A DNA stretch of 7,139 nucleotides from Pseudomonadota bacterium (GTDB lineage: Bacteria > Pseudomonadota > Alphaproteobacteria > UBA9655), in contig JAKBAL010000114.1 of assembly GCA_021809225.1 (NCBI GenBank), positions 1-7,139 on the forward strand. Direction: 5' to 3'. Of the stretch, positions 6,639-7,139 are shown piece by piece (the first letter of the stretch is position 1; every line of letters starts with the position of its first letter). Below the pieces are notes generated by a model that was given only the letters and a program-made list of their open reading frames with translations, made no database searches and was not told the DNA's origin. The position numbers and the translations under genes were made by a program.

Positions 6639-7139
6639 ATGTCAATTTCTAACTCATTGAAAATAGTATGTTTTTCTGGATTTCTTCGTCTCTACGCTCC
6701 TCGAAATGACGGTTGGGCGGATCGTCATTGCGAGGTTCCAAAGGAGCCGAAACAATCGAGCGCTATTGAAGATACAAATGTCTTTGTGGTTTCTCCACCC
6801 CAATCCTTAGCAACAGTCGAGGACTACTGGCAACTCTTGAAGCCGCGGGTTATGTCCTTGGTGGTTTTTACAGGGATTGTGGGGCTATTGCTGGCGCCGG
6901 GGCCTATTCACCCTGTGATTGCCATAGCCGCGATTTTGTGTATTGCCGTGGGGAGCGGTGCAGCAGGCGCCATTAACATGTGGTATGAACGGGATATCGA
7001 TGGTTTGATGGATCGGACAAAAGATCGGCCTATCCCTCAAGGGAGGATCCAAGCCGGAGAAGCCCTGGGATTTGGGCTGACCCTTGCCATTGGTTCTGTC
7101 ATTGTGATGTATACCCTTGTCAATTTTTGGGCAGCGTTT
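6639..7139 (+). CDS. ctaB: Heme O synthase (protoheme IX farnesyltransferase), 3' end outside window
   Basis: An inner-membrane UbiA-family prenyltransferase that joins a farnesyl group to heme B to make heme O, the step before heme A for the oxidase encoded next to it. The frame is open from the ATG at 6639 for 167 codons to the window edge. The conserved body starts near residue 60 (VEDYWQLLKPRVMSLVVFTG), followed by a first helix and the Asp-rich active-site stretch NMWYERDIDGLMDRTKDRP (113-131). Residues about 13-40 are encoded by a palindromic repeat, which makes the N-terminus tens of residues longer than I expect for the family. The start is uncertain. The ATG one base after the ctaD stop has no clear ribosome binding site and would rely on coupling to ctaD. 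An in-frame GTG at 6786 would leave the repeat untranslated in the leader, but it also lacks a good site. The catalytic assignment is firm. Confidence 0.93.
   Translation, partial: MSISNSLKIVCFSGFLRLYAPRNDGWADRHCEVPKEPKQSSAIEDTNVFVVSPPQSLATVEDYWQLLKPRVMSLVVFTGIVGLLLAPGPIHPVIAIAAILCIAVGSGAAGAINMWYERDIDGLMDRTKDRPIPQGRIQAGEALGFGLTLAIGSVIVMYTLVNFWAAF
6676..6757. repeat. Palindromic repeat within the ctaB reading frame
   Basis: The arms CCTCGAAATGACG (6699-6711) and CGTCATTGCGAGG (6723-6735) pair at 12 of 13 positions around an 11-base loop. The outer parts continue the symmetry less perfectly: GGATTTCTTCG near 6678-6688 faces the complement of CGAAACAATC at 6748-6757. The left half resembles a widespread dispersed repeat of the type GGATTGCTTCG...CTCCTCGCAATGACG, and the right half is the same type inverted; this comparison is from memory. 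In the ctaB frame it contains no stop and encodes about residues 13-40, starting SGFLRLYAPRNDG. It is a different repeat family from the element at 2050-2291. Confidence 0.85.

Follow-up and report, generated by a model that had tools for sequence, protein, structure and literature searches.

Gene organization of the window and the ctaB reading frame

The window, the whole 7,139-nucleotide stretch of DNA that was analyzed, contains four genes, ctaE, ctaC, ctaD (coxI), and one for a solute-binding protein, together with half of a fifth, the first half of ctaB. The coxI and ctaB genes were named by homology, and the other three by eye. The coxI gene, which codes for cytochrome c oxidase subunit I (positions 5042–6637, forward strand), is an open reading frame (ORF) of 531 aa with 88–93% identity to CoxI of the related loci L001–L011. 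Its stop codon (6635–6637) adjoins the frame of ctaB, which extends on the forward strand from an ATG at 6639–6641 to position 7139, where it is still open at the end of the window with 167 residues visible. The conserved body of CtaB opens with the motif EDYW at residue 61 and is from there on approximately 80% identical to CtaB of the bacterial family. The initial annotation had placed an imperfect palindrome (6676–6757) inside a frame that stays open from ATG6639 into CtaB, and this is confirmed, with the body joined at residue 61. Residues 13–40 of the frame read SGFLRLYAPRNDGWADRHCEVPKEPKQS.

Two start codons come into question for ctaB. The favored one, ATG6639, is positioned 1 nt past the coxI stop and has no Shine-Dalgarno sequence (+0.5 kcal/mol). 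The alternative is an in-frame GTG at 6786–6788 on the forward strand, 148 nt past the coxI stop and behind the hairpin of the palindrome, which also has no Shine-Dalgarno sequence (−0.3 kcal/mol). A short form initiated at this codon would begin V(M)SPPQSLATVEDYWQLLK and have an 11-residue tail before EDYW. Translation of the repeat hangs on the start codon, because GTG6786 would yield a CtaB of ordinary length.

The palindrome is a tail-to-tail dimer of REP units

The palindrome was delineated from related copies and by alignment to a consensus that we wrote from those copies. A unit of the repeat has the form CGTCATTGCGAG ... GAAGCAATCCA and agrees with published CGTC-tagged REPs in its CGTC tag, its stem, and its tail. 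The first unit (6678–6711) is on the reverse strand and has its CGTC tag at the 6711 end, whereas the second, partly degenerate unit (6723–6759) is on the forward strand and starts with CGTCATTGCGAG, 26 nt ahead of GTG6786 at its other end. The CGTC ends of both units adjoin a spacer of 11 nt (6712–6722) and point inward, which makes the element a tail-to-tail dimer. Inspected by eye, the stem of the first unit is ATTTC/GAAAT and its tail CC(A), and the second unit has the stem ATTG/CAAT with one broken pair and the tail CGA. The first unit differs from ATTGC/GCAAT by two stem changes that are complementary to each other (also by eye), and it therefore seems to be a stem variant rather than a decayed copy.

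Copies related to the element were found at 23 places in seven of 13 related genomes (E-values from 5e-8 to 0.008). A strict pattern for a single unit matches 96 places in 11 of the 17 genomes of the family, and the reversed control pattern matches none; all these counts of dispersed copies come from related genomes. Judged by its sequence, the element at 6676–6759 belongs to the superfamily of CGTC-tagged REPs. A new repeat family is ruled out by the copies in relatives and by the description of CGTC-tagged REPs in the main text of PMC3733652. According to the same text, the superfamily includes two palindromic elements of Rickettsia conorii, RPE-4 (a CGTC-4 REP) and RPE-6 (a CGTC-1 REP), so the claim of the initial annotation that the repeat is of a different family from the Rickettsia elements does not hold. 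A scan of Rfam gave no matches at gathering scores, and a search of viral contigs returned nothing useful. In a plasmid collection, two Methylocystis rosea records contain a 39-nt match without an annotated feature. Among the papers listed by literature searches with pieces of the repeat, none was on repeats according to its title.

The predicted RNA fold of 6660–6775 has an energy of −35.2 kcal/mol (z = −2.39), and three of 200 shuffled sequences folded equally well, so that the fold by itself is just moderately unusual. The palindrome score of 6676–6757, calculated half against half, is matched at one other site of the window, at approximately 2047–2132.

The dimer is flanked by an imperfect direct repeat, with a left copy at 6656–6675, which reaches 6685 when it is taken to include the beginning of the first REP unit, and a right copy at 6765–6785, which reaches 6794 (both on the forward strand). 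The flanks alone are matched by 80 of 2000 shuffles and the repeat with its REP part by none of 2000, in a region that was picked after the fact. A target-site duplication was considered, but the evidence for the direct repeat (6656–6685/6765–6794) becomes marginal once the REP part is excluded, and the region was chosen post hoc. The period of the direct repeat is 109 nt, which is not divisible by three; if the repeat marks the insertion, plain removal of one period would throw ATG6639 out of frame.

Start codons of ctaB in related genomes

In all 12 nearest relatives examined (L001–L012), an ATG of ctaB is located within a range that extends from overlap with the coxI stop as ATGA to 8 nt past it, and in L009 it is 1 nt past the stop, as in the window. 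These starts were picked by hand, and L011 offers three candidate ATGs within the range. Eleven of the 12 have no Shine-Dalgarno sequence (duplex of −2.1 kcal/mol or weaker; the exception is L012 with −5.3 kcal/mol), in contrast to the other genes of the window, for which the energies are −4.3 to −9.3 kcal/mol. The position of the junction and the missing Shine-Dalgarno sequences indicate that ctaB in this group is probably translated by ribosomes arriving from coxI, that is, by translational coupling. ATG6639 retains the junction arrangement of the relatives, whereas GTG6786 does not.

The lengths of the N-terminal tails provide evidence of the opposite kind. The long form begins with approximately 47 residues that are missing from close homologues, the tails of which have 11 to 18 residues before EDYW. 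A tail of 11 residues, as GTG6786 gives, occurs in five (G001, G002, G006, G008, and G010) of the 13 relatives with a measurable tail; three more loci had no anchor, and G014 was left out. Homology of the tail was matched by ten of 5000 shuffles for columns −1 to −6 and by 75 of 5000 for columns −7 to −11. None was found between the repeat and the GTG, at columns −12 to −16 (2212 of 5000 shuffles as good), and the detectable homology therefore ends at GTG6786. When residues 1–58 were compared with a set of 5.8 billion proteins, no protein of suitable length shared three words with them. In a tree, the window belongs to a well-supported group with L001–L011 and L020. The nearest kin within this group is not resolved, so the ancestral tail length cannot be fixed from the tree.

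The interval between coxI and ctaB was inspected in 80 other loci, and the REP pair is absent from all 80 orthologous sites; the interval of L067 contains a single loose motif with two mismatches. In L020, coxI and the ctaB body are 729 nt apart, and the interval between coxI and ctaB (approximately 4269–4960) contains ORFs that resemble, by eye, an MNT/HEPN toxin-antitoxin pair.

Significance of the open frame

The chance of a frame staying open through the element was estimated by simulations, in which the flanks were shuffled and the phase and orientation of the element were random, with 20,000 trials for each set. With the element of the window, 15.6% of trials gave an open frame, and with the copies from relatives (19 of the 23 related places), 7.1% did. 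An open frame together with an ATG within the first five codons was obtained in 1.5% and 0.6% of trials, respectively. Among the 80 related ctaB loci, six have at least 60 open codons ahead of the conserved body without any REP there, which makes openness alone weak evidence. The point is stronger when the open frame is considered together with the conserved position of its ATG.

REP units within reading frames of other genes

The 96 exact REP units were sorted according to the ORFs that span them: eight have no spanning ORF, 68 are in ORFs shorter than 100 aa, seven in ORFs of 100–149 aa, and 13 in ORFs of at least 150 aa. Thus, 76 of the 96 are without a spanning ORF of at least 100 aa. The 13 units in the longest class fall in 11 ORFs, ten of which were scanned against Pfam; the remaining one, S15, was omitted as an orthologue of S09. 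Domains were identified in eight of the ten, with the REP positioned between or outside the domains, and the other two are domainless.

Two REP pairs are in linkers. In PutA of G009 (Pro_dh 133–421, Aldedh 514–941), a REP pair is located in the linker between the domains. The insert is missing in 11 of 14 orthologues; in the other three (G016, G012, and G014), the linker is longer but does not contain this repeat. An AddB-like protein of G009 (PDDEXK_1; the name AddB was assigned by us) also contains an in-frame REP pair. At the same site, 11 of 15 other orthologues are without an insert, and those of G012 and G014 are too divergent to judge. The AddB-like genes L182 (G009), L252 (G013), and L253 (G016) contain three different in-frame palindromes at one linker site, with folding energies of −95.5 kcal/mol in G013 and −62.7 kcal/mol in G016. 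To judge from these sequences, the linker is a hot spot for the insertion of palindromes. Other REPs are terminal: one is at the C-terminus of a NuoM-like protein of G006, and two PstS-like proteins (PBP_like_2) have a REP at one end. The cases at N- and C-termini share the doubt about the true protein ends that applies to ctaB, whereas the linker cases of PutA and the AddB-like protein do not.

Several further ORFs contain similar sequences. A DUF2155 protein of G009 (L179) and a protein of G006 with no Pfam match (L199) have a REP-coded N-terminal MDC...LLAMT before a hydrophobic stretch. REP-like units are also found in L091 (G006) and L096 (G001), in long ORFs that resemble, by eye, CcmF/CcmH and a proline-rich protein.

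In three genomes (L259, L260, and L261 of G006, G008, and G010), a family 5 solute-binding protein (SBP_bac_5 according to Pfam in G008) has its first residues and a portion of its putative signal peptide encoded by a REP. The protein of G006 begins MDCFVGTMSLLAMTTFLLSPLHA, in which the portion through AMT is the REP; the leader of G008 resembles it, and that of G010 has one REP-like unit. The REP-made leader would presumably be cleaved and direct export. In the remaining genomes of the 15 that were aligned, the leader is an ordinary hydrophobic one with no sequence relationship to the REP, G002 being unclear. Among the papers listed by a literature search, none was on a REP-coded signal peptide according to its title, which is no proof of novelty.

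Another palindrome of the window, at 2041–2300, is composite, has CGTCATCCCGG ends, and separates ctaE from the gene of the solute-binding protein. It has matches in nine of the 17 genomes of the family, including 110 in G011 and 24 in G016, and the palindrome at the AddB site of G016 matches it closely.

Probable translation of the repeat as part of CtaB

We consider it probable that the repeat is translated from ATG6639 as an N-terminal extension of CtaB. A tail-to-tail dimer of CGTC REPs would have been inserted near the beginning of ctaB, on the 3′ side of a start codon abutting the coxI stop, with the reading frame remaining open after the insertion. Ribosomes that end coxI at 6637 would re-initiate 1 nt further on, at ATG6639, and read through the repeat. 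CtaB would thereby gain about 43–48 residues, 28–30 of them derived from the repeat, presumably as a harmless unstructured tail before the first membrane helix. The AlphaFold model contains no structure before residue 60, and its pLDDT is below 50 for most of residues 1–58. The predicted lack of regular structure would suit a loose tail; however, the model is poor overall (mean pLDDT of 55.3) and its confidence is too low for this to carry weight.

The dimer may instead be untranslated and part of a spacer between coxI and ctaB, with CtaB starting at GTG6786 and the hairpin acting at most on the mRNA, through its stability or by uncoupling the two genes. We held this view initially, because GTG6786 matched the N-terminal length of the homologues, and tail length and detectable homology do both stop at this codon. 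Most REP units of the family are located outside long ORFs, and the main text of PMC3733652 describes REPs as mostly intergenic, with many of the N-terminal ones judged extragenic; the 109-nt period of the flanking repeat also suits an ancestor without an in-frame ATG6639. The junctions of the relatives and the missing Shine-Dalgarno signals shifted our view to the in-frame reading, and we now regard the spacer as unlikely. It would place the start of ctaB at a GTG without a Shine-Dalgarno sequence and 148 nt off the coxI stop, against coupled starts in 12 of 12 relatives, and it would take a coincidence of about 0.6–1.5% for the frame to be open and to have an ATG 1 nt past the stop.

It is improbable that both codons are used, ATG6639 for a long form through coupling and GTG6786 for a short one: the two are in frame with each other and equally devoid of a Shine-Dalgarno sequence, but the GTG has no visible initiation signal. 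An error of assembly or sequencing as the source of the repeat or the open frame is improbable in the extreme. A second copy of the locus was searched for and not found, but 11 of 17 related genomes contain members of the repeat family, and the genes on either side are intact within the visible stretch. Translation from ATG6639 is the better-supported reading, and the proposal of the initial annotation that this is an in-frame event like those of the Rickettsia palindromic elements is partly supported, although that annotation had overlooked the in-frame GTG6786.

Comparison with known systems

The closest known system is that of the CGTC-tagged REPs (Di Nocera, De Gregorio and Rocco 2013, PMC3733652). 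The element of the window shares with them the CGTC end motif, the short stem-loop units, and the inverted dimers and, as counted in related genomes, the many dispersed copies in alphaproteobacteria, some of which are in ORFs and many of those N-terminal. According to the main text of that paper, many REPs at the N-termini of ORFs may be extragenic, and tail-to-tail dimers are rare among CGTC elements, whereas the element of the window is tail-to-tail. The main text does not appear to name the uncultured host family of the window, and it does not mention ctaB, heme, or AddB. BIME-like REP dimers in untranslated spacers are similarly positioned between co-directional genes and may form hairpins in the mRNA; however, the ctaB frame of the window begins with an ATG where starts are conserved and is open through the dimer.

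The insertion of palindromes in frame is a known kind of event, which recurs in several genes of this family. If the long form is made, the window provides an in-frame REP in heme O synthase outside Rickettsia, positioned exactly where translational coupling would force it to be read. We tentatively suggest that CGTC-type palindromes could continually supply new coding sequence for the ends and linkers of proteins of the family (CtaB, three times in the AddB-like linker, and the leader of the solute-binding protein), repeatedly domesticated as translated sequence and once as a targeting sequence. The family offers orthologues of PutA and the AddB-like protein that are free of the insertion, and a possible signal peptide made from a repeat. 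With such gene pairs, it becomes testable whether the translation of palindromes is no more than tolerated or can at times be of use.

In Rickettsia, RPE-1 (Ogata 2000) forms in-frame palindromic inserts in conserved proteins, and an RPE-bearing guanylate kinase is translated and active, as reported in PMC2229807. The element in ctaB would likewise be a palindromic in-frame insert, but RPE-1 is 105–146 bp long and another repeat (PMC2229807). RPE-4 and RPE-6 are inserted in frame in conserved genes, as the element probably is, and their kinship with it rests on the superfamily assignment in the main text of PMC3733652.
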